Shown piece after piece: positions 7,750 to 56,811 of a stretch of DNA of 64,000 nt. The notes beneath the pieces were generated by a model. It saw nothing but the letters and a program-made list of their open reading frames with translations, made no database searches and was not told the origin of the DNA. The translations under genes and the position numbers were made by a program. This DNA is from Pseudohalioglobus sediminis (GTDB lineage: Bacteria > Pseudomonadota > Gammaproteobacteria > Pseudomonadales > Halieaceae). Location: contig NZ_VTUX01000003.1 of the NCBI RefSeq assembly GCF_008370495.1, positions 310,001 through 374,000 on the forward strand. The letters run 5' to 3'. Numbering within the stretch: position 1 is the first letter of the stretch; each line of letters opens with the position of its first letter.

Positions 7750-7765
7750 TATACAGCAATGTAAA
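7750..7765. promoter_or_regulatory. Recurrent operator, site 1
   Basis: TATACA-GCAA-TGTAAA followed by G. Fits the window consensus TnTACA-N4-TGTAAAG. It lies between the divergent TonB receptor (start 7706) and cupin (start 7868). Confidence 0.65.
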
Positions 7766-7777
7766 GCCTATTATTAT

Positions 7778-7793
7778 TTTACAGATCTGTCTA
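7778..7793. promoter_or_regulatory. Recurrent operator, site 2
   Basis: TTTACA-GATC-TGTCTA, 28 bp centre to centre from site 1 in the same divergent promoter region. Its right half-site (TGTCTA) matches that of site 3. A further TGTAAA lies at 7794-7799. Confidence 0.55.
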
Positions 7794-7867
7794 TGTAAAT
7801 TATTGCCAGTCCAGGCTGAGCTATACATAATGCCTACCCGTCGCAACTAACAGAAGGAGGAACAAGA

Positions 7868-8449
7868 ATGGCGGTACTCACACTTACTAGAACACGCTTC
7901 GGCGTACCTACAACTCTCCGCCCGGCGAAAAAGCAAACTGGGCGAATCGGATGCATGGGACTCACGCTGTGTGCGGTCCTGTTGGTTGCGGAGCCCACAC
8001 TGGCGGAACAAGCTGGAGGAAACACGATGGAAGAGATCAAGACACAAACTACACCCTCCCCGGTGAGAATGAATCCCGACAAAATCGCCGGTGTGGATCT
8101 CACGGCGGGAGAGCCGTTCCTCGCTCCCGAGGACCTTCTAGAAGGAAATCACCGACCGCGCGGAGACGCTCTCTATTGGGGCAAAGAGCTGGTCGTTGAA
8201 ATCTACGAAGATGATCCTGGCACGCATGCAATCACCAATCCTTTCCCCGTCGATGAGTACGTGATGGTGCTTAGCGGCAAGCTGATTTTGACGGACGCGG
8301 ATGGTCAGATGCAGGAGTTCGTTGCGGGAGATTCGCTGATGGTACCGAAGGGCTTCACTGGCACCTGGCAGATGCTCGGGAACTACCGCGAGCTGATCGT
8401 CGTGGAAAGGGAGTCCTACGAGAATGCCTTAAAAGCGGGCGAGGAATAG
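7868..8449 (+). CDS. Secreted cupin protein
   Basis: A 193-residue cupin with a long basic N-terminal region and then a hydrophobic export segment ('MGLTLCAVLLVAEPTLAE', about residues 30-47), so it is expected in the periplasm. I keep the ATG at 7868 because a strong GAAGGAGG site lies seven bases upstream; an internal start at residue 30 would also give a normal signal peptide. The barrel shows 'DEYVMVLSGKLILTDADG' and 'GDSLMVPKGFTGTWQMLGNY', close to the cupin at 62771-63235. It is divergent from the TonB receptor and shares its regulatory region (sites 1 and 2). The 3' end faces the interrupted SpdH-like gene, tail to tail. Confidence 0.85.
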   Translation: MAVLTLTRTRFGVPTTLRPAKKQTGRIGCMGLTLCAVLLVAEPTLAEQAGGNTMEEIKTQTTPSPVRMNPDKIAGVDLTAGEPFLAPEDLLEGNHRPRGDALYWGKELVVEIYEDDPGTHAITNPFPVDEYVMVLSGKLILTDADGQMQEFVAGDSLMVPKGFTGTWQMLGNYRELIVVERESYENALKAGEE

Positions 8450-8545
8450 CCGGTCAGAACCGCGCCAGTTATTGCCCTGGGGCGGGTCTTTACGATCAGG
8501 AATGCCCTGTTCGAGTACTTACGCTGTGATTGCCTCGCTAACGGC

Positions 8546-10465
8546 TTATCCAATTATCTCGTTAACGGCTCGTGCAGCCGCATCAATAGCACTGTGCAGA
8601 TAGGCTTGCGCTTCTGAATCACTATTGGCAATACTGATACGGCCTATTGCTGCTCGTCCCAACTCGTGAGGGGCTTGCCCTTCTTCCCACTCTGGATCAA
8701 ACAGACTGTTGTATTCATAACTGTAGCCATGTGACCAGCGGTTGACGGTAATCGCTTCAATATCCTGTTCGGCATCAAAACCGTTGCCACCAAACATCGC
8801 CGTTAGTTGATCTTTTACCTCCTTTTCATAGGTTTCAAAGGTGGTGGTATAAAGCTTATGGCGCCCGAGGCGGTAAAGGTCACGGGCGTTTTGTTGGCCG
8901 TTGTTACGGGGGGCAGGGGCATGAAGCATCACCAGCACCAGCGGGTTGTCGCCACGGCTGCCATCGCGGTAATCACCCAGGCTTACGGGCGGCGCTTTGG
9001 TGACGACTGAGAAGTAACTGCCGGGGCATTGGTATTGTACTGGACCTGAGGCATGAACCGAGGCACCGCTGCGTATAAGTACACTGGTCATAACCAACGG
9101 TACTTTTACACCGTACTTTAGGTTTTCTTTTTGTGCTTCAGGAAGTTCCGGGCACAGGTGGGAAATAAGGCCATTGTAACAAGCCAGGATACTGTGCCTG
9201 GCCTGCACTTTGTAAGGCTTGCCATTTTGGACGTAGGATACCTCTACGCCATCATCAATATTCTTTACATTAACTGCCGTACTGTTGAGTCGAATACGCA
9301 CAGGCGCATCGCTGCGATCGAGCTGGCTGTAGTCAAAACGGTCTGTGAGGATACTTTCCATTGCGTTGCTGGATGCGCCGGATGTGTTGGGAGCAACCGC
9401 AGGAACAAGCTTGCGCACCAGCAGGCGAGCGACCGAGGCGTTGCCATCTGGAAATACCGGAAAACTGATATTGTCGACGAGACTATCCATCAGCTTGTTG
9501 AGCAGCTTGCCGGTATAACCGACGCTGTTGGCACCGGGGTAACCGAGCATGAATGCTGTTTCCACCGACACGGATTCGATGCCCTAACCCATAAATATCT
9601 TATTAAAAGACTCAAACGTCCTGACGGTATCCAATGACAGCCCCGCTTTTTTAATCAAAAACTCCTCGTAGGAGGTGGCGCCGATGTAGTCTTTGGTTTC
9701 CAACAGGGAGAGATCGTCGAGCAGGTCCTTTTCACCATTGATCAGGTCGAGTAAGCGTTGATGTTGTTCCGGGGGCAGTCCCAGCTCCTGGATCAGTTCA
9801 ACGGTTTCTTCGTCACCCTCCAGGGCACTGGGCCAGTGGCCCTGTATAATCTTATTCTGACCGTAATGCTCTTCGTTGAGAAAGTATCCCTGCGACGAGT
9901 TAAGCTGGGCCAGAAGAAAGTCGGGCTCGCGTGCGGCGTCGAGCTTGTCTAAGTCGATGTCCAGTTCACTGATGACTCGTGCTGCTGTATCGCTAAAAGA
10001 GTAGTGTTCGAGATTGAAACTGCCACCAGGCCCCAGCAGGGTACGATCCCCCAGCTGAAATTCGTTGCGCTTTGCGTGACCGCCAAAGTCATCGTGATTA
10101 TCTAATATAAGAATTTTTTTGTCGGCGCCGGCCTGTTGTTGATAGAGGTAGGCTGCCGCCAAACCGCTGATGCCTCCACCCACAATAATGAGGTCATAGC
10201 CCTCATCCAGTTCACTGTATTGTTCAGGTTTGTTGCCGCGCCAGGCCAGGTCATGGGCGATTTCGAAGGAACCGTTGTGGCTACCTCGAATACCCGTCCG
10301 TGTAGGGGGGTAGTACTTTTTTCCCAAGCCATCTGATGCAGGCGTAGGTAATAACTGCTCGACAGAATCTGACGCGATTAAACTTCGGGCGGGCAGTGTG
10401 CTGCCCGCGGCGATCGCGATCGCCGCTCCATTGAGAAAATCTCTGCGTTTAATGCTTTTCTTCAT
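8546..10465 (-). pseudogene. SpdH-like Tat FAD oxidoreductase interrupted by one in-frame TAG
   Basis: Two open stretches, 10465-9584 (293 codons) and a downstream part ending at 8546, are in the same frame and separated only by a TAG at 9584-9586. Together they make an otherwise complete protein of about 639 residues: twin-arginine signal (KRRDFLNG), FAD motif GGGISG at 96-101, 'DNHDDFGGHAKRNEF', and the C-terminal 'RISIANSDSEAQ'. In the paralogue at 60679 the aligned residue is Leu (in 'RGLSGWNMSV'), so a TTG to TAG change is the simplest history. No frameshift or other lesion is seen, which suggests a recent mutation, a sequencing error, or translation past the stop. It follows the quinohemoprotein dehydrogenase gene by 81 bp on the same strand. 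Confidence 0.85.
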
Positions 10466-10546
10466 GCTTGGTTTGCGCCATTTTTGTTAATGTCGCTGCC
10501 GGTTCCCTGGCGAGTCCTCCGGGACGGGGCCTGCCTCCGTCTCCCG

Positions 10547-12643
10547 TTATTCCTGGCCGACAGCTCGTGTATGCGTATTGGCATCCTCGTATGCGCTCCA
10601 GGCGGTGTTAACCAGGTAGGCGTAGAGCGCCTCGGTGCTGGCATCGTCTAGCTCCACCTCTGGCATACGCGGGGCGAACGCTCCGCCCAGCACTGCCTTC
10701 AAGTAATCGATAGTTGGAGGCAGGCGCATGCGCAGGTCGGCTGCCGCGCCCCCGACGGATTGGCCGCCATATCCGTGGCATGCCACGCATCCCGCGAGCG
10801 AATAAATAGCTTCCCCCATCGCCGCCACTTCCGGTGGATATGGGTCGACCGACGGTTTCCGAAAAGTCAGCGGGGCGGCCCATGGGGGCGTCGATGCATC
10901 CCCTCCCAGCACGAAGGCCAACAACCGTGGCCGGCTGCGCGACTCCTTCGTCGAGCTGTAGTCTGTCAATCCGGACGATGCGGTGGATGAGGAAGGCGCA
11001 CCAGCAGGCACGATGATGTACTGTAGACCGTCGGCCATTACTGTCGACGGCGCAGCCCGGATCGCGCCACCGGCTGTGAACGACTCCAGCAGCTCTCCCG
11101 AGGTAGCATCGTAGGCGTTCAGATAGCCCTCGGCCGTCCCCTGGAAGACGAGTCCGCCCGCCGTGTGCAAGGCCCCGCCGTTCAGGGGCAATGCATTGCG
11201 CTGCCTCCACACCTCGTTCTGGGTGACCGGATCCCACGCAACGAGCTCTGCGAATGCCTGCGATTCGGGGCCACTTTGACTGCCGTGCGAGTAATCGTAG
11301 GTGTAATCTCCACTGGCCGTTCGCTCGTACCGTTCAGGCATCGTGATCGCGGGGATGAAGAGCACATTCTTCTGGGGGTCAAATGCCAGAGCGGTCCAAT
11401 CATGCGCACCTGCGCTACTCGGAACAACAATCGTCGACTCACCGTCGGCCGCTTCCCAGTAGCGTGCAGCAGAGTCGAAGATCGGTCGCCCGGTCTCGCC
11501 GTCAAGGCCTTTGGCCCAGTTGACCGGCACGTAGTTGCGCCCCGAGATGAACTCGCCGGTCTTCGCGTCCAGGAGATAGACGAAGCCATTCTTCGGCACG
11601 CTGAGGACAACGCGCCTGTCCTCGCCGTCGATCGGCAAGGTGGCCGTCATGAGCCCAACAGCGGGCTCGTAGTTCCATCCGTCACCTGGCACCTGGCTGA
11701 AATGCCAACGGTACGCACCGGTCTGGGCATCCAGGGCGACGACGGCATTGGTGAAGAGCTCGTCGCCAGCGCCCTTGCCACGTTTGGTCGGATCCGAAGG
11801 TGCCGGTGCGCCGGTTCCGATGATGAGCTGGTCCAATTCGGGGTCGTAAACCATGGCTTCCCAAACGCTGCCGCAGCCCCTGGTCGTCTCATACCACCCT
11901 TCACCCCAGGTCTTCGCCGCCATTTCATAGAGCGCACTATCTTGAGACTTGCTTGGGTCGCCTGGAACCGTGTAGAAGCGCCACAGGTGTTTCCCAGTTC
12001 TCGCATCAACCGCATCCACATGACCGCGATTGAGACCCATATCAGCGCAGGAGTTGCCGATAAAGATCTTGTCGCCCCCAACGCGAGGTGCACCGGTAAT
12101 CATATAGGCCTGGCTGCCATCACAGGTTTCGGTCTCCCATCGCTTGGCCCCGGTCGCTTGATCGATTGCGACGAGCCGGCAGTCTGATGTTCCGATGATG
12201 ACGAGGTCATCAACGAGCGCGACTCCGCGATTAATACTCCTCAACCAGGTCTCCAGAAACGACCCCGGAGGCCTGTCGGCGAGAGGCTCGTATGTCCAGA
12301 GCAGCTTCCCCGTCTGCAGATCGTTGGCGAAGACCTGGCTCTGCGATCCGCCCTGGAAGATTCGTCCATTCCTGATGAGAGGATTGCCAACGAGCCCATC
12401 CCGGGTAGGGAGATCGATCGCCCAGGCGAGCCCCAGGTCCGACACCGTCTCGGTGTTGATCTGGCTCAGGCCGGAGTGGTGCTGCATGTCGGGGGAGTTG
12501 CCGAGCAACTCCCAGTTCGTGGACCTGGCGTCGCTCGCCATCGACGAGGGCACTTGTTCATCAACTGCGTCCATCGCATATCCGGTGCCCACAACTGCGA
12601 AAAGGGCGCCGATCACGACTACGCGAAGCCATTCGATATTCAT
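10547..12643 (-). CDS. PQQ-dependent quinohemoprotein alcohol dehydrogenase
   Basis: A periplasmic quinoprotein of about 698 residues that would oxidise alcohols and pass electrons through its own heme to the respiratory chain. Seen: a signal peptide ending 'VVGTGYA', repeated beta-propeller blades with the quinoprotein pattern 'AxDAxTGxxxWxF', the block 'RFYTVPGDPS', and a C-terminal cytochrome c domain with the heme motif CVACH near residue 620. I start it at ATG 12643 ('MNIEWLRVV') because an upstream frame would overlap the cupin gene and lacks a signal peptide. It is 37 bp downstream of a secreted cupin gene and 81 bp upstream of the interrupted SpdH-like gene, so the three look like one periplasmic oxidation operon. 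The substrate is unknown. PQQ synthesis genes are not in the window. Confidence 0.92.
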   Translation of the reverse strand: MNIEWLRVVVIGALFAVVGTGYAMDAVDEQVPSSMASDARSTNWELLGNSPDMQHHSGLSQINTETVSDLGLAWAIDLPTRDGLVGNPLIRNGRIFQGGSQSQVFANDLQTGKLLWTYEPLADRPPGSFLETWLRSINRGVALVDDLVIIGTSDCRLVAIDQATGAKRWETETCDGSQAYMITGAPRVGGDKIFIGNSCADMGLNRGHVDAVDARTGKHLWRFYTVPGDPSKSQDSALYEMAAKTWGEGWYETTRGCGSVWEAMVYDPELDQLIIGTGAPAPSDPTKRGKGAGDELFTNAVVALDAQTGAYRWHFSQVPGDGWNYEPAVGLMTATLPIDGEDRRVVLSVPKNGFVYLLDAKTGEFISGRNYVPVNWAKGLDGETGRPIFDSAARYWEAADGESTIVVPSSAGAHDWTALAFDPQKNVLFIPAITMPERYERTASGDYTYDYSHGSQSGPESQAFAELVAWDPVTQNEVWRQRNALPLNGGALHTAGGLVFQGTAEGYLNAYDATSGELLESFTAGGAIRAAPSTVMADGLQYIIVPAGAPSSSTASSGLTDYSSTKESRSRPRLLAFVLGGDASTPPWAAPLTFRKPSVDPYPPEVAAMGEAIYSLAGCVACHGYGGQSVGGAAADLRMRLPPTIDYLKAVLGGAFAPRMPEVELDDASTEALYAYLVNTAWSAYEDANTHTRAVGQE

Positions 12644-12680
12644 TGCTGCTACCTGATATTTAGTGGAAGGAGGAGCATCT

Positions 12681-13157
12681 TCAGGAATTGTCGCCGCTTT
12701 CTTCGAGATAGGCGGTATCAATCACGATCAACTCTCGGTATTTCTCAGGCATATGCCATCCGCCCTTGTACCCTTTTGGCACCACCAGGGACTCACCCGT
12801 CTTGAATTCGAATTCCCCGCCACTGTCGGGCGTCAGGATCAGCCGCCCTTCCAGAATCTGGACGAATTCATCATAGACTGCACCATCAATATGGACCTTG
12901 CCGGGTTCGGCCTCATAGACCGCCACCATGATTTTACCGGTATGGAACATGTGGGTGCTGAAACCGGCGGATCCGTCTTCACCCTGGGTAACATTGTCCT
13001 TGTCTTCGAATTCGCTCATATCGCCCTGGGTCAGGCCTTTACCATCAAGAATGCCCTGTTCGATGGCAATCGGTAGAATTCCCTGTGGTTCTGCTGAAGA
13101 TTCTTCGCTCATAACGTCTTGTCCTGAAAGTAGCAAACTGCATGCCGGAATAGGCAT
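12681..13157 (-). CDS. Small cupin protein, export signal shortened
   Basis: A 158-residue cupin closely paralogous to the one at 4832-5314 (shared 'DGAVYDEFV', 'ILEGRLILTPD', 'GYKG.WHMPEKYREL'). The homologous N-terminus there is a full signal peptide, but here the frame opens only at 'MPIPACSLLLSGQDVMSEES', with an in-frame stop about 45 bp upstream. The export signal may therefore be truncated, or the protein may start at 'MSEES' and stay cytoplasmic. It heads the cupin, quinoprotein, FAD-oxidoreductase operon. A terminator-like hairpin and recurrent operator site 3 lie upstream. Confidence 0.82.
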   Translation of the reverse strand: MPIPACSLLLSGQDVMSEESSAEPQGILPIAIEQGILDGKGLTQGDMSEFEDKDNVTQGEDGSAGFSTHMFHTGKIMVAVYEAEPGKVHIDGAVYDEFVQILEGRLILTPDSGGEFEFKTGESLVVPKGYKGGWHMPEKYRELIVIDTAYLEESGDNS

Positions 13158-13305: not shown

Positions 13306-13321
13306 TATACAGATGTGTCTA
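13306..13321. promoter_or_regulatory. Recurrent operator, site 3
   Basis: TATACA-GATG-TGTCTA followed by G, about 149 bp before the cupin start at 13157 and downstream of the SnoaL-like gene. Probably serves the cupin/quinoprotein operon. Confidence 0.55.
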
Positions 13322-13372: not shown

Positions 13373-13774
13373 TCAAGCCGGGCTGATATCCTGCTTGCCG
13401 AGGATATTGAAGCTCTGGGTGGCAATCTTCCACTCGTCGTCCACTTTGTTCAGCTCCCAGTCATAGTCAACGGTAAATGTGTTGCGCTTGAACAGGGTCA
13501 ACATCTTGAGCCGCCCGGTCGCCCGCGTATCGCTGACCACATCGGAGTAGAAGCCCGTCGCATGATGCCCCAGGCAGTCGGGCGCAGACTCGAAGAACTC
13601 CCGGATTTGCTCGTGGCCATCAAAGGTCTTTCCGTAGACTGCACTGGCATCCAGGTGGGCGTCTTTTGCAAACAGGGCCAGTGCCGCATCCCAGTCCTTG
13701 CGATCGCAGGCATCGCAGTAGCGCGCGCCCATTTCGGCCAGTAGTAATTTGTCCGCCAGCAGTTCAGTGTTCAT
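13373..13774 (-). CDS. SnoaL-like/NTF2-fold protein
   Basis: A 133-residue NTF2-like protein with the usual first helix ('ARYCDACDRKDWDAALALFA') followed by 'GKTFDGHEQIREFFE', typical of SnoaL_4 relatives. The start has a good AAGGAG site eight bases upstream. It is the last gene of the eight-gene minus-strand CoA operon, 25 bp after a crotonase and just before the hairpin at 13202-13239. In such operons these proteins are often isomerases or dehydratases acting on ring or enone intermediates; nothing here fixes the reaction. Confidence 0.8.
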   Translation of the reverse strand: MNTELLADKLLLAEMGARYCDACDRKDWDAALALFAKDAHLDASAVYGKTFDGHEQIREFFESAPDCLGHHATGFYSDVVSDTRATGRLKMLTLFKRNTFTVDYDWELNKVDDEWKIATQSFNILGKQDISPA

Positions 13775-13799
13775 CGTTGCTCTCCTTGTGTCAGTAAGT

Positions 13800-14630
13800 C
13801 TAACTATCCAGAAAATTGGTCGCTCGTTTCTCTTTGAGTGCTCGCAGCCCCTCTTTGAAATCGGGTAGCTTGATCGCCGCGTTCATATCCTCAACAGAGC
13901 GGGTGTAAGCCGCAGAAAAATCCCCTTCTGCGTCAAAATTGACCTGCCGCTTGATGCAAGCCATGGAGAAGCCAGAGCTCTCCCTTGCCAGCCTGGCGGC
14001 GTAATCCACTGTTTTCTCGAGAAGCTCTTCCGGCGGGAAAATTTTCTGCAACCAGCCCAGGCGAAGTGCTTCGGCGCCATCAATCCGGTCCCCATCCAGC
14101 AGTATCTGCAGTGCATTACTGCTGCCCATGATCTTCGGCAGTATCCAGCCCAGGCCGTACTCTGCGGGCAAGCCCAGGCGCGCAAACGCACTCTTGATAA
14201 TGTTGTTGTCAGCGCCGAAACGGAGGTCGGCATAGCTGGCGACAATAAAACCGACGCCGGCGCAGCTACCGTTAACGGCAGCGATCACGGGTTTGGAGAT
14301 AGACAACGGGTAGGCGTGATTACGCTGGAATTGCTCTGGTGTATTTTCCGGGTAAGGAGGAAGGTCGAGCTTGCTTTTCTTGTAGTTGCCACCGGCGCTC
14401 TCGATCGAGTTCAGCTCCTTCGCGTCAGCCCCGACACAGAAATCATCGCCACTACCGGTAACCACGACTACCCTGACGCTATCATCTGAATGCGCGTTGT
14501 AAAGGGCCCAACGATATTCCACAGACATCCGACCACCCCAGGCATTGCGTCGATCCGGGTTATTGAGGGTGACCAGTGCGACCCCCCTGGATACCCGGTA
14601 GTGTATTTTCTCGAAGTCTTCAGCTTTCAT
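13800..14630 (-). CDS. Enoyl-CoA hydratase/isomerase family (crotonase) protein
   Basis: A 276-residue crotonase. Seen: the oxyanion-hole region 'GSGDDFCVGADAKEL' (about 60-75) and 'NGSCAGVGFIVASYADLRFG' (about 120-140), then 'ARLGLPAEYGLGWILPKIMG'. One of the two classic catalytic glutamates of enoyl-CoA hydratase is replaced (GVGF instead of GCEL), and the second may be the Glu in LPAEYG. The reaction could therefore be hydration, isomerisation or C-C cleavage of an acyl-CoA. It lies between an acyl-CoA dehydrogenase subunit (42 bp upstream) and the SnoaL-like gene. Confidence 0.88.
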   Translation of the reverse strand: MKAEDFEKIHYRVSRGVALVTLNNPDRRNAWGGRMSVEYRWALYNAHSDDSVRVVVVTGSGDDFCVGADAKELNSIESAGGNYKKSKLDLPPYPENTPEQFQRNHAYPLSISKPVIAAVNGSCAGVGFIVASYADLRFGADNNIIKSAFARLGLPAEYGLGWILPKIMGSSNALQILLDGDRIDGAEALRLGWLQKIFPPEELLEKTVDYAARLARESSGFSMACIKRQVNFDAEGDFSAAYTRSVEDMNAAIKLPDFKEGLRALKEKRATNFLDS

Positions 14631-14672
14631 GTAACCGCCTAATCTCTATGTATTGCTGGTGCCGAATCCGCC

Positions 14673-15821: not shown

Positions 15822-15849
15822 TGAGAAAAATCTATGTTATTGGCACAAG

Positions 15850-16629
15850 TCAGCGCACTTCATGGGGAGATTTTTTTGCCGAGCCCCGGTCAACCTGGCC
15901 GTCACTCAGGTTATTCACCTGTATATAGAGCATTGCCCTGTCCAGGGCCGTGGAGAGGCCGCTATCCAGTGATTGCCAAACGGTCTTGACCGTGCCCTGC
16001 GTAGCCAGGGTAGGCTTGCTGGCAACCTTGGCTGCCAGTTCCCTTGCTCGCGTCCACAGTGCTTCCCGGGATTCCATCACCTCGCTGACCAGGCCGATCC
16101 GCAGCGCCGTTGCAGACGACATTCGCTCGTCATTGCCCAGCAGGTTCATGCGCATAACCTCGCCATAGGCGATCCGCCGGGTAAGACCGATGGGCTCACA
16201 GGCACTGACCATGCCGAAACTCACATGGGGATCAAAGAACTCCGCGTCTTCGGAGCAAATCACAATATCCGACTCGTTGAGCCAGTAGTACGCACCGCCA
16301 CAGCACAGGCCATGTACGGCACAGATGATGGGCTTCCACATTTCGTTCTGCTTGGGCCCCAGTTTCTTGCCCGGGTCCCACTGGGACCAGACCACACCCT
16401 CGCGCCAGATGGAATCTGTTTCCTTGACATCCTTACCCGTGGAAAATGCCCTGCCATCCGCCGCCCTGATCACCACGGCGTGGACCTGGTCATCGGCCTT
16501 GATCAATTCCCAGACTGCCGCCATCTCCTCAACCATCTGGCTGTTGAAGCTGTTCATGGCATCCGGGCGATTGATCGTCACTGTCGCCACATGATCTTCG
16601 TGGGTCTCGTAGCTTATCGTCTCGAACAT
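15850..16629 (-). CDS. Crotonase-family protein
   Basis: A 259-residue enoyl-CoA hydratase/isomerase-family protein. I start it at ATG 16629 ('MFETISYETHEDHVA'): the open frame runs 159 bp further but would overlap the ligase gene and lacks homology there. Motifs: 'ADGRAFSTGKDVKE' (oxyanion loop) and 'HGLCCGGAYYWLNESDIVIC', then 'FFDPHVSFGMVSACEPIGL', where the usual PE(I/V) glutamate is changed to DPH. That suggests a reaction other than simple hydration. It is 28 bp upstream of the beta-type acyl-CoA dehydrogenase and 35 bp downstream of an acyl-CoA ligase. Confidence 0.87.
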   Translation of the reverse strand: MFETISYETHEDHVATVTINRPDAMNSFNSQMVEEMAAVWELIKADDQVHAVVIRAADGRAFSTGKDVKETDSIWREGVVWSQWDPGKKLGPKQNEMWKPIICAVHGLCCGGAYYWLNESDIVICSEDAEFFDPHVSFGMVSACEPIGLTRRIAYGEVMRMNLLGNDERMSSATALRIGLVSEVMESREALWTRARELAAKVASKPTLATQGTVKTVWQSLDSGLSTALDRAMLYIQVNNLSDGQVDRGSAKKSPHEVR

Positions 16630-16664
16630 AGTGCTTCTCACCCTGGCTGGAAATCCAGCCTCTA

Positions 16665-48631: not shown

Positions 48632-48647
48632 TAGACACTAATGTAAA
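48632..48647. promoter_or_regulatory. Recurrent operator, site 10
   Basis: TAGACA-CTAA-TGTAAA followed by GTA, 32 bp before the crotonase start, in the divergent crotonase/amidase promoter region. Confidence 0.65.
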
Positions 48648-48657: not shown

Positions 48658-48673
48658 TATACAGTGCTGTATA
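48658..48673. promoter_or_regulatory. Recurrent operator, site 11
   Basis: TATACA-GTGC-TGTATA, the most symmetric copy: the two half-sites are perfect inverted repeats. It is 26 bp from site 10 and 49 bp before the amidase start. Confidence 0.68.
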
Positions 48674-48721: not shown

Positions 48722-50251
48722 ATGGATCGAAGAGATTTCCTTAAGAAGAGTACGGTTCTCGGGCTGTCACTGGCTTCACCAGCCACCAGATCGCTGGAGT
48801 TGAAGACCATGGCCGAGGAAATCACCAGTCTGAGCGCCTCCAGCCTGTCGCGGGCCATTCGAAGCCGGGAAGTCGCCTGTGAAGAAGTGATGCAGGCCTA
48901 CCTGCAGCGTATTCACCGGTACAATCCTGTCTATAACGCGATCGTAAGCCTGGTAGATGATGCGGATTTGTTGAGCCAGGCAAGGCTAGCGGACAAAGCA
49001 CTGCAGAAGGGCGAGTACTGGGGCTGGATGCACGGGATGCCACACGCGGTGAAGGACCTGGCCGATGCGCGAGGATTGGCGTCCAGCTATGGTTCACCGA
49101 TCTTCGCAGGGACAGTCGCCACCCAGGACAGCCTCCCCATCGCCCGGATTCGCGCCCAGGGTGCCATCTTTATCGGCAAAACCAACAGCCCGGAGTTCGG
49201 CCTGGGCTCTCAAACTTACAACGCTGTATTCGGCACTACGCGCAATGCCTACAACCCCGCATTGATTGCGGGCGGCAGTAGCGGGGGGGCCGCAGTCAGT
49301 CTTGCAGCGCAATTGGTACCCGTCGCGGATGGCAGCGACATGATGGGTTCACTGCGAAATCCGGCGGGCTTCAACAATGTGATCGGCTTTCGCCCGAGCC
49401 AGGGAAGAGTACCAAGCCCATCGGCGGAGTCGAAACTGTACTACGACCAGTTGGCGACTGACGGCCCCATGGGCCGCAACGTGGAAGACACCATCCGACT
49501 GCTTGGTACGATGGCCGGCTACGATTCGCGTGCCCCGCTTTCACTGCGGGACACGATACCTCCCTACGAGGAATTCCGGCCGGCTGAGCTCAACAAACTG
49601 CGTATTGGCTGGATGGGGGACTACCAGGGCTACCTCCCCATGGAAGCCGGCGTATTGCCACTGTGTGAATCGGCCATGCAACAACTGTCGATTAACGGAA
49701 CGGTCGTCGAGAACTGCACACCTGACTATGACATGGCCAGGTTATGGAAAACCTGGCTGACATTGCGCCACTGGTCCTGGAGTGACGCCAGGCCACTCTA
49801 CGATAACCCCCAAACCAGGAAGCTGCTGAAACCGGAACTGCAGTGGGAGATCGAAGGTAGCTTTGATATGACAGCCGCGCGAATTTCCGAGGCGGACAAG
49901 GCCCGCTCAGACTGGTATCGGGCGCTGCACAAACTGTTTGAGCGCCATGACCTGCTCGCCCTGCCCACTGCGCAGGTTTTCCCTTTTTCAGCGGATATCC
50001 ACTGGCCAAAAGCCGTCAACGACAAATCTATGGACACCTATCATCGGTGGATGGAGGTTGTCATCGGCGGCACATTGGCGGGGCTCCCTGTGGTCAATCT
50101 GCCCGCAGGGTTTGATTCGGACGGGCGTCCGATGGGTATCCAGTTTATCGGGCCCATGGGCCAGGATCGCAAAGTACTGGAATTCGCAATGGCCTACGAA
50201 GCGGCTACCAACCACCTCGACAAACGCCCTGCCCTGGCAGAGAAACTGTAG
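48722..50251 (+). CDS. Amidase-signature hydrolase with twin-arginine leader
   Basis: A 509-residue amidase-signature enzyme hydrolysing an amide (or ester) bond. The Ser-cisSer-Lys triad is visible: Lys 111 in 'HAVKDLADA', Ser 186 in 'AGGSSGGAAVS' and Ser 210 in 'DMMGSLRNPAG', with the 24-residue Ser spacing of FAAH. The N-terminus 'MDRRDFLKKSTVLGLSLASP' has a twin-arginine motif, so it may be exported. The block before the nucleophile (GSDMMGSLR, where most have GSDIGGSIR) is unusual. It is driven from the shared site 10/11 region and ends tail to tail with a metallohydrolase gene. Confidence 0.92.
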   Translation: MDRRDFLKKSTVLGLSLASPATRSLELKTMAEEITSLSASSLSRAIRSREVACEEVMQAYLQRIHRYNPVYNAIVSLVDDADLLSQARLADKALQKGEYWGWMHGMPHAVKDLADARGLASSYGSPIFAGTVATQDSLPIARIRAQGAIFIGKTNSPEFGLGSQTYNAVFGTTRNAYNPALIAGGSSGGAAVSLAAQLVPVADGSDMMGSLRNPAGFNNVIGFRPSQGRVPSPSAESKLYYDQLATDGPMGRNVEDTIRLLGTMAGYDSRAPLSLRDTIPPYEEFRPAELNKLRIGWMGDYQGYLPMEAGVLPLCESAMQQLSINGTVVENCTPDYDMARLWKTWLTLRHWSWSDARPLYDNPQTRKLLKPELQWEIEGSFDMTAARISEADKARSDWYRALHKLFERHDLLALPTAQVFPFSADIHWPKAVNDKSMDTYHRWMEVVIGGTLAGLPVVNLPAGFDSDGRPMGIQFIGPMGQDRKVLEFAMAYEAATNHLDKRPALAEKL

Positions 50252-50280: not shown

Positions 50281-51471
50281 TCACCGCCCAGGTCTTCGCT
50301 CCCACCACCTGGGGAAATGGGTATCACTGGAAACATCGACCAGCTGGCCGATAACAGGCGCAACGAGAGGAAAATCCTCTTTCTCGGCGAGTCGACTGAT
50401 TGTTTCAATCGGTTCAAACCAACTGTGCAATGCCAGAGTGAACATCCCCCAATGCACAGGAAAATATCTCTGGGCGTTCAGATCGCGAAACGCCATGACA
50501 CCGTCTTCCGGCAGCATGTGGATCATTTTCCAGGCCTCGTTATATTGACCCGTTTCGATGAAGGCAATATCGAACGGCCCGAACCGGTCACCAATTTCTT
50601 TAAAATGCGGGGCATAGCCACTATCGCCACTGAAGTAGACGCTGTGGCGGCCCGATTGCATCACCCAGGAGGCCCAGAGTGACTGATTGCCGCCAAATCC
50701 ACGGCGCCCGGAGTAGTGCTGCGCCGGCGTCGCAGTAAATGTGACTGCCCCGTGCTCCACCGATTCCCACCAATCGCGCTCAATGACACGATTCGAGTCA
50801 ACGCCCCAGGCTGACAAGTGGGATCCCAGGCCCAACGGGACTATAAAATTTGTGTCTTTGTCCGCGAAGTATCTCACTGTATCCGCCTCGAGGTGATCAT
50901 AGTGGTCGTGAGAAATGAGAACGACGTCGATCTCCGGTAACTGCTCTACAGTGGATACCGGCGGCATATAACGGTTCCCGAAAAAGCTGAATGGGCTGGC
51001 GTTACCAAACACAGGATCCACCAGAATAACCGTCCCTTCCATATTCAACAGGAATGAACTGTGCCCAAACCAGATCAGTTTGAGCCCATCGCCTTCAGCC
51101 AGAAAACGCCCATAGTCAGGAATCTGCTGCGGCAGGGCCTGGGCCGGCTCACGCTGGTTTTCGGTGAGGAAGTAATCGCGAATGTTTCGCCAATTGGTCG
51201 CCCTGCGCTGGGCATCATCCATCTCTGACTGGTTTGGGTTAACAAAGCTACCTCGGACGGAGTCATAGTTACCAGACTGCAGGAATCTGTCCCGCAGGCC
51301 AGCGTCCGCGCTACCTCCCAGACTATCCAGCACGCCCAGTGAAAAATACACCACCAAGGCCAGCATAGCGAACAGCCCAGCTGTGCGAAGGTTTTTCAGT
51401 GAAATCCCCCAGGGGACGATGGGCGACCTCCTGCCCCCGAAAAATTTAGAGAAAACCGCGCCAACCTGCAC
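50281..51471 (-). CDS. Metallo-beta-lactamase-fold hydrolase (NAPE-PLD/UlaG-like)
   Basis: A protein of up to 396 residues with an N-terminal hydrophobic segment (about 30-50) and a metallo-beta-lactamase fold. Metal ligands seen: 'SHDHYDHLE' (His 188, His 190, Asp 192, His 193), 'FSGDSGYAPHFKEIG' (about 288) and 'PVHWGMFTL' (about 345), with 'WFGHSSFLLNMEG' before them. This is the layout of N-acyl-phosphatidylethanolamine-hydrolysing phospholipase D and UlaG-type lactonases. It is probably periplasmic and membrane-anchored. The start is uncertain: the frame opens at GTG 51471 without a good ribosome site. Operator site 12 is 42 bp upstream. Confidence 0.87.
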   Translation of the reverse strand: MQVGAVFSKFFGGRRSPIVPWGISLKNLRTAGLFAMLALVVYFSLGVLDSLGGSADAGLRDRFLQSGNYDSVRGSFVNPNQSEMDDAQRRATNWRNIRDYFLTENQREPAQALPQQIPDYGRFLAEGDGLKLIWFGHSSFLLNMEGTVILVDPVFGNASPFSFFGNRYMPPVSTVEQLPEIDVVLISHDHYDHLEADTVRYFADKDTNFIVPLGLGSHLSAWGVDSNRVIERDWWESVEHGAVTFTATPAQHYSGRRGFGGNQSLWASWVMQSGRHSVYFSGDSGYAPHFKEIGDRFGPFDIAFIETGQYNEAWKMIHMLPEDGVMAFRDLNAQRYFPVHWGMFTLALHSWFEPIETISRLAEKEDFPLVAPVIGQLVDVSSDTHFPRWWERRPGR

Positions 51472-51512: not shown

Positions 51513-51528
51513 TTAACAATCATGTAAA
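51513..51528. promoter_or_regulatory. Recurrent operator, site 12
   Basis: TTAACA-ATCA-TGTAAA followed by AT, between the divergent metallohydrolase (start 51471) and the exported protein gene (start 51597). Confidence 0.58.
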
Positions 51529-51596: not shown

Positions 51597-52169
51597 ATGC
51601 ATCGCAGTCTACTATTCACCGTCACGCTAGCTCTTCTTGCTATCACAATGCCCGCCACTTCCGAAGAACCAGACCAGCACGAGATCTATTTCAGTCACCT
51701 GGAATACGAGTACGGCAACCGGGCTCGTACCTACATCGGCATGGAAGTGGCCGCAAAAGCATCAAGAGACTCAGACAGAGGCCCCTTCTTCCAGGCGTAC
51801 TATGAAATGGAAACGCTCAACCGGGAAATCTATGGCCACATGAAGGAGGAACTTGACGTCGACTACCAGGTCAACTGGTTCGTCGGTATGGGCATAAAAG
51901 CAATTGGCTACCTGGGCTGGCGCTTCCTCGACGCACAATGGTTTGTGGACATGGTCATACCCTATCTTCCCAAGCTGGAGGAGATGCGATCACTGTCAGA
52001 CCCGCAACACCGGCTGTTCTTCGACTATGTTATCGCCCAGGAAGAGGTTCAGCTTGCCGCTAGTCAGGCGGTGGTAGACGGCACTTGGCAAGACGGTGCT
52101 GACCTTATCCAGGCCTTCCTGCCTCAGGCCCGGACGGTACTTGAACAACTCACTCAATCTCCTGACTAA
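51597..52169 (+). CDS. Exported helical protein of unknown function
   Basis: A 190-residue protein with a cleavable signal peptide ('LLFTVTLALLAITMPATSEE') and an all-helical mature part. Glu/His-containing helices ('FFQAYYEMETLNREIYGHMK' and 'FFDYVIAQEEVQLAASQA') recall ferritin-like four-helix bundles, but the metal motifs are not clear enough to claim that. It lies 17 bp upstream of an NhaC-type antiporter with which it is surely co-transcribed, and 69 bp after operator site 12. A periplasmic partner of the transporter is one possibility. Confidence 0.7.
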   Translation: MHRSLLFTVTLALLAITMPATSEEPDQHEIYFSHLEYEYGNRARTYIGMEVAAKASRDSDRGPFFQAYYEMETLNREIYGHMKEELDVDYQVNWFVGMGIKAIGYLGWRFLDAQWFVDMVIPYLPKLEEMRSLSDPQHRLFFDYVIAQEEVQLAASQAVVDGTWQDGADLIQAFLPQARTVLEQLTQSPD

Positions 52170-52186
52170 TACGCGGACCTTGGCCA

Positions 52187-53536
52187 ATGACACCTGAATC
52201 GACCTGGCTATCACTGATACCTGCGGCTGTAGCCATCGTAACTGCGGTACTCAGCCGCCGACCGATAGAGTCGCTTCTGGCAGGTGTATTTGCCGGTCTG
52301 TTACTGCTTGGCCCCGGCTCTGCAGTTGTCAATTTTTCCTCCATTCTATTGGAGGTGATGATGGATGAGACCATCGCCTGGGTGATTATCGTCTGTGGAC
52401 TGATGGGCAGCCTGATTGCCCTACTGATGCGAGTGGGTGCCGCAGACGCTTTCAGTCACGCCCTGGCTTCAAGGGCAAAGGATGCCCGCAGTTCGCTCCT
52501 GTACACCTGGTGCCTTGGACTGGTGATCTTTATCGACGATTACCTCAATGCCCTGGCGGTGGGCTCAGCCATGCGCAAGGTGACCGACAAGTTCCGGGTG
52601 TCACGTGAAATGCTGGCCTATGTGGTGGATTCCACCGCAGCGCCGATCTGCGTCCTGATACCTGTCTCCACCTGGGCAGTGTTTTTCGCCGGGGTGCTGG
52701 AAGTCTCCGACGTGGCAGAGCCGGGCGAAGGCATGGCTCTTTACATCAGTTCCATTCCCTACATGCTCTACGCCTGGATAGCGGGCCTGATGGTGCCACT
52801 GGTTGCCACCGGTCGCATACCACCTTTGGGCATGATGAAAATCGCCCAGGCCCAGGCAGCAGAGAACGGTAACGCCTCACATGACGATGAATTCGACGTG
52901 GCCGCGAGTAATAACCCCGAGCGGGTCCGTATCTATCATTTCTTGCTTCCACTATTTGCACTGATCGGGTTCAGCCTCTGGTACGACCTGGACGTACAGG
53001 TCGGCGTGCTAATGGCAGTCGTCGTCACAATCGTGCTGTATGGGGTTCAACGGCTGATGGCCTGGACCGAGATGTTTGATGCGGTACTGGAAGGCATCAA
53101 AATCATGGTACCTGCCCTGATCATCGTGGTAGTCGCATTCATGTTCAAGGAGGTCAACGACCAACTGGGCCTGGCCCAGTTCGTAATCGAAAACGTGACA
53201 CCCTACATGACACCCACGCTACTGCCCCTGGTGGTATTTGTGACCGTAGCACTGATCGCCTTTGCCACCGGCTCCAGCTGGGGCGTGTTTGCCATTGCCA
53301 TCCCCATCGTGCTACCGCTGGCAGACAGCGTGGGGGTCAGCCCCCAACTGGCCATCGGCGCGCTGGTCTCAGCCAGCGCCTTTGGCAGCCACGCCTGCTT
53401 CTATTCTGACGCTACTGTTTTGGCTGCCCAGGGCAGCGGTTGTGGAGTAATGGAACATGCACTAACGCAAATTCCCTATGCAGTCATCGCCGCTCTGCTC
53501 GCCGGTACCGGCCTGACACTCATCGCGGCCTTGTAA
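52187..53536 (+). CDS. NhaC-family Na+/H+ antiporter-like transporter
   Basis: A 449-residue integral membrane protein with roughly 11 helices. It matches the NhaC group: 'ALVIFIDDYLNALAVGSAM'-type segment ('LGLVIFIDDYLNALAVG', about 105-122), 'VVDSTAAPICVLIPVSTWAV' (about 145-164) and 'FATGSSWGVFAIAIPIVLPL' (about 360-380). The family exchanges sodium for protons or amphiphilic solutes such as malate-lactate or tyrosine. In this island it may couple uptake of an organic acid to the sodium gradient, fitting a marine host. It follows the exported helical protein by 17 bp. Confidence 0.9.
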   Translation: MTPESTWLSLIPAAVAIVTAVLSRRPIESLLAGVFAGLLLLGPGSAVVNFSSILLEVMMDETIAWVIIVCGLMGSLIALLMRVGAADAFSHALASRAKDARSSLLYTWCLGLVIFIDDYLNALAVGSAMRKVTDKFRVSREMLAYVVDSTAAPICVLIPVSTWAVFFAGVLEVSDVAEPGEGMALYISSIPYMLYAWIAGLMVPLVATGRIPPLGMMKIAQAQAAENGNASHDDEFDVAASNNPERVRIYHFLLPLFALIGFSLWYDLDVQVGVLMAVVVTIVLYGVQRLMAWTEMFDAVLEGIKIMVPALIIVVVAFMFKEVNDQLGLAQFVIENVTPYMTPTLLPLVVFVTVALIAFATGSSWGVFAIAIPIVLPLADSVGVSPQLAIGALVSASAFGSHACFYSDATVLAAQGSGCGVMEHALTQIPYAVIAALLAGTGLTLIAAL

Positions 53537-53553: not shown

Positions 53554-54501
53554 CTAATTAGGGGTACTGCGACCTTGATTCAGATCCAGCTTTCGTCCCA
53601 GGAAAGCGAACACCGAGTCCCAGTGCAGCCGGCCCGGTGAGGACGCCGGTAACAGTGTTTCCATACCGTGTACCCCTCCCTCGGTGACAAACAACTCACA
53701 AGCGACCCCGTCGGATTGCAGCCGCTCAGCGTAGGTCACGCACTCCTCATAGAACAAATCCAGATCGCCAATAGCCAGCAAGGTCTCGGGCAGGCCGGCG
53801 AGCGATTCCCGGCGTGCCGCTACGGCGTGGGTGGGGGCCTCGGGCAAACCGGGATCCTGCCCCAGGTACCGTTGCCATCCCCCCCAGTTGTTGCGATTGT
53901 TCCACACGAAATGCTGCTCCGCCGTTAAGTCCGCACGTGTGGCGGTGCGATCATCAAGCATCGGGGCCAATAGCCATTGCGCCACGGGCTGTGGGCCACC
54001 CTCATCGAGTAACCGCTGCGCCAGTGTCGCGGCCAGCCCACCGCCGGCGCTCTCACCGGCGACAACGACCCGCTGCGGATCGACACCTAGCTCTACACTG
54101 TGCTGTTGCAGCCATTCCCAGCTAGCCACACAATCATCCAGCGCCGCGGGAAAGGCGCTTTGGGGCGCCAGGCGGTAATCCACCGATACCACGGTTATAC
54201 CCAGGGCATCCACGATGCGGCGGCAGGTAGCATCGTCAGTATTGGCACTAAAACACAAGTAACCACCGCCATGAATCCACAACAGCGCGGCATCGCTTGC
54301 CGGGCTTGCAGGCTGGTATATCTTGCTACGTGATGGTCCATGCGCTGCCCAACGAACCGTGGTAGTTGCGTCCCCTTTAAAGGGGGGTATCAGTTTGACC
54401 AGAGCGTTCACCAACATTCGAACCGGCGGCCAATGATAAGGCAGCGCCGGGATCCAGCGCGCCGAACTTTGATAGTCAGGGTGTACTTTATTGAGCTTCA
54501 T
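53554..54501 (-). CDS. Alpha/beta hydrolase, HSL-family esterase
   Basis: A 315-residue esterase of the hormone-sensitive-lipase group. Seen: the oxyanion motif 'WIHGGGYLCFS' (about 75), the nucleophile elbow 'GESAGGG' (about 148), and the Asp/His partners in 'AIGDLDLFYEECV' and 'EGGVHGMETL' near the C-terminus. It would hydrolyse a short or medium ester, perhaps releasing an alcohol (for instance an acetylated terpenol) for the alcohol dehydrogenase in the same run. It is last in the minus run ADH, SMR pump, NAD(P)-binding protein, esterase. Confidence 0.92.
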   Translation of the reverse strand: MKLNKVHPDYQSSARWIPALPYHWPPVRMLVNALVKLIPPFKGDATTTVRWAAHGPSRSKIYQPASPASDAALLWIHGGGYLCFSANTDDATCRRIVDALGITVVSVDYRLAPQSAFPAALDDCVASWEWLQQHSVELGVDPQRVVVAGESAGGGLAATLAQRLLDEGGPQPVAQWLLAPMLDDRTATRADLTAEQHFVWNNRNNWGGWQRYLGQDPGLPEAPTHAVAARRESLAGLPETLLAIGDLDLFYEECVTYAERLQSDGVACELFVTEGGVHGMETLLPASSPGRLHWDSVFAFLGRKLDLNQGRSTPN

Positions 54502-54530
54502 TTCGGCCGTTTCCGCCAGCGATTGAAATA

Positions 54531-55184
54531 TTATCTTTGAAGCAACATCACGGCATCCGGCACCGGAATATCACCGTCTGTAAGCTCTATAATCTCTCGA
54601 CGAATCGCGGGGGTATCAATGAGCGCAGCTAACATTTTTGCGACGCTGCCTCGAGCCACACAACCGTAGCTGATGGCCAGTCCTGCGTTTACCAGGCCGT
54701 TACCGTCCTCACTGACAAGCGTTCCAGGGCGCAGAATGACCCAGTCCAGTTCCGACGCAGCCAAAGCATTATCGGCCTGCCTTTTCACTTTCATATAGTG
54801 CTCGAAGCCATCTTTCCTCGGCTGAGCGCGACCCGCATCCATAAATGCGGAGACCAGATAGACACGCGCTATACCATTCGCCCTGGCCGCATGAATGGTT
54901 TTTATGACGCCCTCCCCATCGATTGCTGTGGTGCGCTCGAGTCCACTGCCAGCGGCGCCGGCAGAGAATACAACAACATCGCAATCCCGCGTGAATTCCG
55001 TAAGGTCTTCTACGGTCAGAGTCATGATGTCACCAAGTCGGGGGGTAATACCCGCATTTTCAAGCTTGCCTGCCTGTTCAGGCTTCCGGTGCAGACCAGC
55101 TACATCGTGCCCTGCATCGACAAGCATTGGACCAAGCCGGGAGCCCACGCCCCCGGTGACTCCAATAATGAAGATCTTACTCAT
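54531..55184 (-). CDS. NAD(P)-binding atypical SDR
   Basis: A 217-residue NAD(P)H-binding protein with 'IIGVTGGVGSRLGPMLVDAG' (about 6-25) and 'VAGLHRKPEQAGKLENAGI', where the Arg favours NADP(H), then 'VVVFSAGAAGSGLERT'. It is in the YwnB/NAD_binding_10 group of small atypical SDRs without the Tyr-Lys pair, so reductase activity is uncertain and a sensor role is possible. It lies 25 bp after the SMR pump gene and 29 bp before the esterase gene. Confidence 0.85.
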   Translation of the reverse strand: MSKIFIIGVTGGVGSRLGPMLVDAGHDVAGLHRKPEQAGKLENAGITPRLGDIMTLTVEDLTEFTRDCDVVVFSAGAAGSGLERTTAIDGEGVIKTIHAARANGIARVYLVSAFMDAGRAQPRKDGFEHYMKVKRQADNALAASELDWVILRPGTLVSEDGNGLVNAGLAISYGCVARGSVAKMLAALIDTPAIRREIIELTDGDIPVPDAVMLLQR

Positions 55185-55209
55185 GTTATATTCCGCCTCA
55201 GGAGCGTCC

Positions 55210-55536
55210 TTAAGTTTCTATGCTGGAAAATACCCGCAGGACAACAACACCACTGATAATCAGCGCGATACCCAAAATGGCCGGTAAGTCCATTTTCTGG
55301 CCAAACATCACTGCGCCCACGATGGTTATCAGTACAATGCCAAGGCCAGCCCATAGTGCGTAGGCGACGCCTATGGGAATCGTTTGGAGGACAAGCGACA
55401 AGAAGTAGAAAGAAGCGCCATATCCCGCCACCACCAGCAGACTGGGCACCAGCCTGGAAAAACCTTGTGACTCCTTCAGCGCACTGGTTGCCAGCACTTC
55501 AGCAACTATTGCGATTGTCAGGTACCAATAGCCCAC
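55210..55536 (-). CDS. Small multidrug resistance (EmrE-type) efflux protein
   Basis: A 108-residue protein with four membrane helices, very like EmrE: the essential Glu in 'TIAIVAEVLATSALK' (helix 1), 'GYGASFYFLSLVLQTIPIGV', 'AYALWAGLGIVLI' and 'FGQKMDLPAILGIALI'. GTG 55536 is preferred because CGGAGG lies five bases upstream and the length then matches EmrE; the frame opens nine codons earlier at a TTG. It would export lipophilic cations or toxic intermediates using protons. It starts 36 bp after the ADH stop in the same transcript, perhaps as a solvent or alcohol tolerance function. Confidence 0.92.
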   Translation of the reverse strand: MGYWYLTIAIVAEVLATSALKESQGFSRLVPSLLVVAGYGASFYFLSLVLQTIPIGVAYALWAGLGIVLITIVGAVMFGQKMDLPAILGIALIISGVVVLRVFSSIET

Positions 55537-55572
55537 ATTGTCCTCCGGAAAAAACTGGATCAAAAATGGCTT

Positions 55573-56685
55573 TTAAGGCCGCAAAACAGCCTTGATCACT
55601 TTCCCCTGCTCGGTGTCTTCGACCGCTTTATTGATGTCGTCGAGCTTGTAGAATGTGACCAGCTTGTCAAAAGGGAAGCGGCCCTGTTTGTAGAGCTCTA
55701 TCAACCTTGGAATGAACACATCCGGAACACTGTCGCCTTCGATGATGCCACGCAGGCTCCGTCCGAACATAATGCTGTTCATATCGATCGCGCACTCCGT
55801 CCCAACAGGCGATACACCGATCAGCCCGCATACCCCCGTCAACGTCAGCGAATCCACAGCTTGCCGGAGAACCTCGGGTATTCCCGTGCACTCCAGCGTA
55901 TAGTGAACCCCTGTCGGCCTGATTTGATGGATGCCCTCGATGGGGTCGCCCTGAGTCGGGTCGATTGCATGGGTAGCACCTAATTCACGCGCCAATTCAC
56001 GCCGCGAAGCATTGGGGTCGACGGCGATGATTTGACCACATCCTGCGACCTTTGCCGCCATCACTGCGGCGAGCCCGACCGAACCACAGCCAAATATCGC
56101 GATGCTCATACCCGGTCGTGGGTTGAGCGAGTTCATTACGGCGCCGGCCCCTGTCTGAATGCCGCAGCCCAGTGGCCCTAACAGATCAAGCGGAACGTCA
56201 TCCGGTACCTTTACCGTGTTCTTTTCAGTGGCCAGGGCATGCGTTGCGAAAGAGGATTGATTGAAAAAGTTGCCGTGAATGACTTCATCACCCTTACGCA
56301 GGGTTGTGGAGGCATCGAGACGGGTCGCGGCGAAGTTGCAATCGTAGAGCTCGTGGCAGTAACCCGGACTGTGTTCGAGGCAAGGCTCGCAGTGGCCACA
56401 AGAGAGAAAGCTGAGCACGACGCGGTCGCCAGGCTTCACCTTGGTGACTGATTTCCCAACGCTCTCGACAATCCCGGAGCCCTCATGGCCAAACACACAG
56501 GGCAAGGGTACTGGGAAGTACTGATCTCGACACACGAGGTCCGTGTGGCAGACCCCGACACCCGCTACTCGTATCAGGACTTCATCACTGCGTGGCGCCT
56601 CAAGGCTTAGATCCTCGATAAGGAATTTCCCAGACTTCTCGCGGATGACTGCTGCTTTAACGTCGACTGATGCTTCGCCTGGCAT
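55573..56685 (-). CDS. Zinc-dependent aryl/allyl alcohol dehydrogenase (benzyl alcohol/geraniol type)
   Basis: A 370-residue medium-chain zinc alcohol dehydrogenase, with ATG 56685 preceded by GGGGAG. Catalytic zinc ligands Cys 46 ('VGVCHTDLV') and His 67 ('FGHEGSG') are seen, with structural-zinc cysteines at about 96, 99, 102 and 110 ('[16 protein letters not shown]'). The coenzyme loop is '[10 protein letters not shown]' with Asp in 'AVDPNASR', favouring NAD. This is the XylB/GeoA style of enzyme for benzylic and allylic alcohols. It is divergent from the LinD-like gene, and in linalool/geraniol degraders a GeoA-type dehydrogenase oxidises the geraniol made by LinD. It heads the run ADH, SMR pump, NAD(P)-binding protein, esterase. 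Confidence 0.92.
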
Positions 56686-56750
56686 GGTTTTCTCCCCGTG
56701 GCAGTTAATTGAACCTTCATCTACCGAATCGAAAGTCCGCCTCAATACTT

Positions 56751-56770
56751 TACATGTCACTTGACATGTA
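56751..56770. promoter_or_regulatory. Perfect 20-bp palindrome in the ADH/LinD-like promoter region
   Basis: TACATGTCA-CT-TGACATGTA is a perfect inverted repeat in the gap between divergent genes, 66 bp before the ADH start. It shares the TGACATGT element with the region before the TetR gene at 59307-59876, so that regulator is a candidate ligand. Confidence 0.65.
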
Positions 56771-56795
56771 GCATATTATCATCCGAGTATCGCTA

Positions 56796-56811
56796 TAATC
56801 AACTGTGTAAA
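56796..56811. promoter_or_regulatory. Recurrent operator, site 13, overlapping a -10-like TATAAT
   Basis: TAATCA-ACTG-TGTAAA followed by GTA, 17 bp before the LinD-like ATG. TATAAT at 56794-56799 overlaps its left half, a classic repressor position. The ribosome site GGAGAG follows. Confidence 0.65.

Follow-up and report, generated by a model that had tools for sequence, protein, structure and literature searches.

In regulons of the KstR/KstR2 type, copies of a single palindromic operator are spread over an extensive catabolic region of acyl-CoA type, and the regulators are ordinary single-unit TetR homodimers with operator sequences other than the one described below. The locus considered here lies on the Pseudohalioglobus sediminis contig NZ_VTUX01000003.1, in a stretch of 64,000 nt (the window, by which we mean the whole stretch analysed; negative coordinates lie to the left of its start), and comprises an island of predicted degradation genes in which a palindromic operator recurs, together with a gene for a tandem (double) TetR protein of 426 residues (22752..24032, + strand), the proposed regulator. 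Double TetR-family regulators (TFRs) have been described as an infrequent subgroup, 204 members of which were predicted in Actinomycetes by an earlier study (PMC11667970). As described there, Mce3R of Mycobacterium tuberculosis (9b7y) is a single chain of ~400 residues with two TetR units whose helix-turn-helix units are non-identical; it recognizes a 25-bp asymmetric site, two of which lie 53 bp apart in a promoter with two operators, and the genes it regulates include cholesterol-metabolism enzymes (PMC11667970).

We judge it likely, at a probability of roughly 0.8, that the island operator would be bound by the double TetR protein in one-chain form, probably repressing the island until it is released by an acyl-CoA. 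That one regulator and one operator family extend across the island, as the initial annotation of this DNA had proposed, is strongly supported by the genome-wide specificity of the sites, their presence in nine of nine divergent gaps and their conservation in relatives.

A putative palindromic operator repeated through the island

The initial annotation listed 13 copies of a motif, all of them intergenic and all with a 4-bp spacer; every copy was found where it had been placed, with that spacer, and 0/13 lie within a mapped gene. Site 31400 falls in a longer mechanical open reading frame (ORF; 31098-32714), homologues of which align from the later start adopted here. As literally written, TnTACA-N4-TGTAAAG, the motif is exact in only 3/13 copies (7750 and 40629 on the + strand, 38483 on the - strand). 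If ≤3 mismatches are allowed, it has 60 oriented matches across the window where 23.8 would be expected, a number reached by 0/100 shuffles; the matrix described below gives a better separation. The consensus operator is the symmetric palindrome CTWTACA-N4-TGTAWAG, its 4-bp spacer fixed, and three bases of the half-site TnnnCA, namely T at position 1, C at 5 and A at 6, are invariant (26/26 in the matrix, both strands). The commonest half-sites among 48 distinct sites pooled from P. sediminis and its relatives are CTTTACA (n = 34) and CTATACA (n = 11).

A 22-bp matrix built from the 13 sites, both strands, was run on C17:230001-454000 (224 kb, the window included) and on fetched loci, while genome-wide searches used IUPAC patterns. 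The matrix found 17 sites above 16 bits in the 224 kb, the next best scoring 14.0, and simulated DNA gave a mean of 0.25, 0.20 and 0.10 such sites (Markov order 1, 3 and 5; 20 simulations each). Half-site pairs above 16 bits numbered 17 at spacer 4 and ≤3 at each other spacer from 0 to 14. Within the window a score above 10 bits was reached by the 13 sites alone, and when each was left out of the matrix in turn they scored 12.6-28.8 bits, the minimum being that of 56796.

Besides the 13 sites in the window, three lie to its left and one, a satellite, ~57 kb to its right. Those on the left stand before an aldehyde dehydrogenase gene (-7186), between nitronate-monooxygenase-like and MaoC-like genes (-4063) and between a thiolase-like gene and a P450 gene (-629), and the operator-bearing region starts ~7 kb left of the window. 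A doublet at 7750..7765 and 7778..7793 (21.4 and 20.5 bits) separates TonB receptor 1 (-) from a cupin gene (+), and 13306..13321 (25.4 bits) is upstream of a cupin-pyrroloquinoline quinone (PQQ) dehydrogenase unit (-). Divergent gaps hold 22588..22603 (24.3 bits; acyl-CoA ligase 2 on -, tandem TetR on +), 31400..31415 (21.8 bits; acyl-CoA dehydrogenase 5 on -, thiolase 2 on +) and 38483..38498 (23.8 bits; a short-chain dehydrogenase/reductase (SDR) on -, orf38613 on +). Upstream of an amidohydrolase gene (+) is the site at 40629..40644 (29.7 bits), and TonB receptor 2 (-) is preceded by a second doublet, 45968..45983 and 45997..46012 (21.9 and 23.0 bits). The third doublet, 48632..48647 and 48658..48673 (25.1 and 22.5 bits), occupies the divergent gap between a crotonase (-) and an amidase (+) gene; 51513..51528 (22.1 bits) lies between a metallohydrolase gene (-) and the orf51597-antiporter unit (+), also divergent; and the weakest site, 56796..56811 (16.7 bits, falling to 12.6 if the matrix is built without it), lies in the divergent gap between a Zn alcohol dehydrogenase (-) and a LinD-like gene (+). 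The doublets, annotated as 26-29 bp apart, measured 28, 29 and 26 bp in the order given here. The satellite operator (C17:430861) stands before genes for an acyl-CoA ligase and an aldehyde dehydrogenase, and on its other side a 212-residue ORF, an FAD oxidoreductase gene and a cupin gene read towards it. A promoter scan of 22450-22800, the region of the regulator's operator, found no sigma-70-like site.

The sites cluster in the promoter gaps of genes with linked functions. Between the first aldehyde dehydrogenase gene and the TetR gene past the LinD unit, operators occur in 9/9 divergent, 0/6 convergent and 3/10 tandem gaps of ≥40 bp, in an island with 6.4% intergenic DNA. The strict pattern TWWNCA-N4-TGTAAAG has 8 exact matches in the 4.43-Mb genome, 8/8 of them within the island, and its reversed form has 1. 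A looser pattern, TWDNCA-N4-TGTMWA, gave 35 oriented matches against 19 for its control in the whole genome, at 16 distinct places in the island and satellite and 9 elsewhere; the six of those nine that were fetched scored 1.7-15.9 bits with the matrix. The annotated estimate of 35-40 controlled genes was too low, the count being nearer 59 mapped genes including that of the regulator, plus two satellite genes (a hand count on the gene list that assumes units without internal promoters).

A further claim, that left half-sites vary more than right ones, was not supported and is partly an effect of orientation. For the 16 island sites of P. sediminis the inequality between half-sites had p = 0.024, or 0.12 once the score threshold was allowed for, and for the 48 pooled sites, which are non-independent, the corresponding values were 0.001 and 0.034. 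We rejected half-site asymmetry as support for two unlike DNA-binding domains.

Conservation in related genomes

A search of genome contigs identified 18 loci. Six are close, at 77-95% identity, and come from records labelled Halioglobus, Luminiphilus, Halieaceae, Porticoccaceae and Haliea, with two fragments from Haliea. Among 195 genomes, P. sediminis included, a close tandem TetR was found only in P. sediminis, G022, G096 and G112, the last three of which we equated with G199, G195 and G197, respectively, based on identical match coordinates. The protein had no match in 72,556 plasmid records.

When the island proteins were mapped on five relatives, the operators were found to be kept in the corresponding gaps despite rearrangement, and an operator was retained also where the neighbours differ, e.g., at the aldehyde dehydrogenase of G195 and G197. 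The initial annotation had named a lack of conservation in related genomes as grounds for abandoning its proposal; instead, in regulator-bearing genomes the sites stand before the same genes, with the exception of LinD in G198 and the satellite in G196. Invariant columns made up 94/96 of the half-site positions versus 379/1008 of the rest in alignments of seven gaps (7/13 island control regions, hand-chosen for available relatives; each alignment held 2 to 6 genomes, and some extend slightly into neighbouring genes). Strict matches fell on one island contig in G196 (6/6) and G198 (6/7), with 1 and 0 matches for the controls.

The 22588 operator in the regulator's own promoter is also present in G195, G196, G198, G199 and locus L021 of G197. 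Counterparts were found in the same gap for 13306 (G198, G196, G197 and G104) and 31400 (G195, G196, G198 and G199), and 40629 precedes the same amidohydrolase in G198, G197 and G196. The doublet at TonB receptor 1 keeps its 28-bp distance in the window, G196, G197 and G104, and that at TonB receptor 2 its 29-bp distance in the window, G198 and G195; at the crotonase/amidase doublet, G198 and G197 have a single operator at the same crotonase. The satellite counterpart in G199, with a ligase 96% identical, has an operator at the same place. The counterpart of 56796 in G195 occupies the same gap and scores 14.5 bits; in G198 nothing above 12 bits was found within 1.6 kb of LinD, and in G197 the upstream side of LinD is lost at a contig end.

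The candidate regulator

The tandem TetR protein has two TetR_N domains (Pfam) and two full TetR units, as in the double TFR subgroup. Its halves are 39% identical over 199 residues (E = 9e-42), and both contain TRPGAYYHFK, presumably where the TetR recognition helix is expected. By its sequence the protein is a fused duplicate of one TetR unit, and because the two recognition helices are equal they would fit a palindromic operator. The single chain would fold into a built-in pseudo-dimer, with an equivalent helix-turn-helix unit on each half-site, and would occupy the operators before the island units, its own gene included. The effect would most likely be repression, lifted by a pathway intermediate, probably an acyl-CoA, and the conserved double operators at both TonB receptors suggest that uptake would be under stricter control. 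The motif itself, its specificity, its placement and its conservation are shown by the data. As to the identity of the regulator, we strongly infer that the tandem TetR protein is the best candidate; repression, one-chain binding, the ligand and a terpenoid-type substrate we infer less strongly.

A single-domain TetR protein of G049 shares 29% identity with the C-terminal half of the candidate regulator and is perhaps its single-unit cousin. Weaker sites resembling the operator lie on both sides of it, at L088 478 (14.2 bits) and 1356 (12.8 bits), and a TonB receptor and SDRs are encoded nearby.

Competing explanations

Several observations weigh against the proposed regulon or soften the case for it. 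Most of the relatives compared are environmental genomes in fragmented form, and the tandem TetR proteins of G195 and G197 (L019 and L021) are nearly identical though the genera differ, either through recent island transfer or through a binning error, so that these two are non-independent. No operator was found at the satellite counterpart in G196 (best 4.0 bits). In G104 the island pieces carry operators and no close tandem TetR was found, possibly on account of its division into 290 contigs. The strict pattern also occurs outside the tandem TetR carriers, at least one match being present in 95/195 genomes (P. sediminis included): the four carriers had 8, 6, 8 and 4 matches versus 1, 0, 2 and 3 for controls, the last pair being that of G112, and two genomes without a close tandem TetR, G193 and G137, had 8 versus 4 and 7 versus 5. 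Solitary sites scoring 18.4-22.7 bits are present in G003, G009 and G070, which likewise have no close tandem TetR; island-protein matches near the sites of these genomes and of G057 (12.6-22.7 bits) are only 24-44% identical. In P. sediminis itself, C11:463134 lies outside the island and at 15.9 bits scores above 56796 when the latter is left out of the matrix, and is poorly separated from it (16.7 bits) when it is included. Matrix matches in AT-rich Gram-positive loci reach 21.3 bits (L033), the matrix being unspecific there. As a separate observation, in G003, which belongs to the same genus, two sites of 22.7 and 18.4 bits stand ~2 kb apart at L090 3465 and 5627.

That AT-rich promoters produce such palindromes by chance would agree with the AT-richness of the gaps and with the scattered Gram-positive matches, but 17 sites were seen where 0.10-0.25 are expected, the half-site columns are conserved in 94 of 96 cases and the spacer is specific, leaving chance with a negligible share. 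A regulator encoded elsewhere in the genome, for which the tandem TetR gene would be just one target, gains from the isolated motif-like sites of genomes lacking a close tandem TetR and from the fact that only sequence evidence ties this protein to the operators; it gains further, at the expense of the preferred reading, because an abundance of strict matches is not peculiar to tandem TetR carriers. We nevertheless consider it improbable: the seven other genomes of the genus, searched for both protein and motif, have no close tandem TetR and a total of 4 strict matches versus 4 for controls, the operators travel with the island genes in five relatives, and the tandem TetR is the sole DNA-binding family found by Pfam among the 59 mapped island genes (4/59 without a Pfam match). 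The single-domain TetR protein encoded beside the island (59307-59876) adjoins it, and in G199 its 76% homologue adjoins an island-type operator (18.5 bits). Still, upstream of its three copies in P. sediminis (there are two further copies in the genome) and of the G199 homologue a different palindrome can be seen by eye (about TGACATGTC...CGACATGT), the island matrix reaches at best -2.4, -5.1 and -1.3 bits upstream of the three copies, and no close homologue was found in G195 and G196, which keep the operators, although both genomes may be incomplete. With what by eye seems to be a palindrome of its own and a patchy presence, this protein is very unlikely to be the island regulator.

More weight attaches to a dimer of two double chains on a single operator, in place of one chain over both half-sites. 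Doublets 26-29 bp apart could mean a higher-order assembly, and Mce3R itself forms a homodimer with each chain on its own duplex (PMC11667970); the same description has one operator spanned by one chain (PMC11667970), and in our island 10/13 control regions hold one operator only. We regard the two-chain arrangement as somewhat unlikely, and prefer the single double chain spanning both half-sites. A more far-reaching form of the proposal, to which we would give about even odds, is that two copies of one TetR unit, fused with their common recognition helix retained in each, work as a covalent one-chain dimer on a palindrome and govern a patchily distributed island of ~59 genes plus a satellite, with operators that follow the genes across reshuffling between genera and mark an uncharacterised terpenoid-type pathway.

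The palindromic repeats near the single-domain TetR genes (window 59877-60040 upstream of the protein itself, C17:427663-427900 and C17:438876-439110 upstream of its paralogues, and L070 1600-1760 upstream of the G199 homologue) are perhaps a second operator system, TGACATGTC...CGACATGT, beside FAD oxidoreductase/cupin clusters.

Gene units and predicted pathway

The unit behind -629 (8..4241, +) comprises the P450, which starts left of the window, a SnoaL protein, an FAD oxidoreductase, a SnoaL_4 protein and orf3519. It is followed by TonB receptor 1 with a cupin and a SnoaL protein (4390..7706, -), a cupin gene on its own (7868..8449, +) and a unit of a cupin (12681-13157), a PQQ alcohol dehydrogenase and two FAD-oxidoreductase-like ORFs (8546..13157, -). 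The latter two, adjacent on the same strand at 8546-10465, match different parts of the oxidoreductase model PigB and may be a split form of the longer FAD oxidoreductases at 1153-3042 (629 residues) and 60679-62637 (652 residues). On the two sides of the regulator gene lie a unit with two acyl-CoA ligases, an aldehyde dehydrogenase, two acyl-CoA dehydrogenases, two crotonases and a SnoaL protein (13373..22497, -) and one with three acyl-CoA dehydrogenases, a type III CoA transferase, an SDR and a thiolase (24029..31344, -). Further right are a unit of a thiolase, two crotonases, a hydroxyacyl-CoA dehydrogenase, a MaoC-like protein and an HpcH/HpaI lyase (31467..37589, +), the SDR gene (37618..38382, -), a unit of orf38613, SnoaL_4 and NmrA (38613..40568, +), amidohydrolase 2 (40704..42026, +) and TonB receptor 2 with an MFS transporter (42121..45957, -). 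The remainder comprises a crotonase with an SDR and a SnoaL_4 protein (46321..48600, -), the amidase (48722..50251, +), a metallo-beta-lactamase-fold hydrolase (50281..51471, -), orf51597 with a member of the Na+/H+ antiporter family (51597..53536, +), a Zn alcohol dehydrogenase with SMR, NAD(P)H-binding and alpha/beta hydrolase proteins (53554..56760, -) and the linalool dehydratase/isomerase (LDI)-like gene, LinD, with a DsbA-like gene (56828..59256, +).

Taken together, the island enzymes suggest that a hydrophobic, methyl-branched compound is oxidized. The nearest solved structure to the P450, assessed through its G198 homologue (89% identical), is that of camphor P450. The acyl-CoA dehydrogenase at 27266-29170 matches (2S)-methylsuccinyl-CoA dehydrogenase (8ciw, 662 bits), the CoA transferase is nearest the 2-methylfumaryl-CoA isomerase model (529 bits, under its cut-off of 725) and the HpcH/HpaI protein is nearest the citrate-lyase-beta and itaconate-degradation lyase models, under their cut-offs; HpcH and one MaoC-like protein had no solved-structure match at the limits set. 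From the matches of the acyl-CoA dehydrogenase, the CoA transferase and the HpcH/HpaI protein we suggest an end route via mesaconyl-type CoA esters to acetyl-CoA and pyruvate. A terpenoid would be a plausible substrate. The initial annotation also gave weight to the LinD-like gene behind an operator; the site is there, but it is the weakest and least conserved, and that weight is unsupported. LinD was found in 3/5 relatives and not in G196 and G199, and with this distribution and the weakest operator it is not a constant member of the regulon.

Comparison with known systems

In the linalool dehydratase/isomerase pathway of Castellaniella defragrans, the closest parallel is the LinD-like gene beside an alcohol dehydrogenase; however, the LinD-like protein here has only ~60 bits to the solved LDI and was not found in two of the five relatives. 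In a literature search that covered subscription journals thinly, neither this regulon nor any palindromic operator for a double TetR was found described. Mce3R was the top match of the tandem TetR protein in both solved-structure searches, though the similarity is low (43 bits). Where Mce3R has a non-palindromic operator and non-identical helix-turn-helix units, the tandem TetR protein has one recognition-helix sequence twice and a probable operator that is palindromic, and so departs from the Mce3R type on both counts; it looks like a double TFR that differs in the predicted symmetry of its operator. If this is true, an uncharacterised degradation pathway would be delimited by its regulation instead of by guesses at its enzymes, and a counterpart to Mce3R with a symmetric operator would open to experiment the origin of such fusions and the question of whether a palindrome can be served by one chain.

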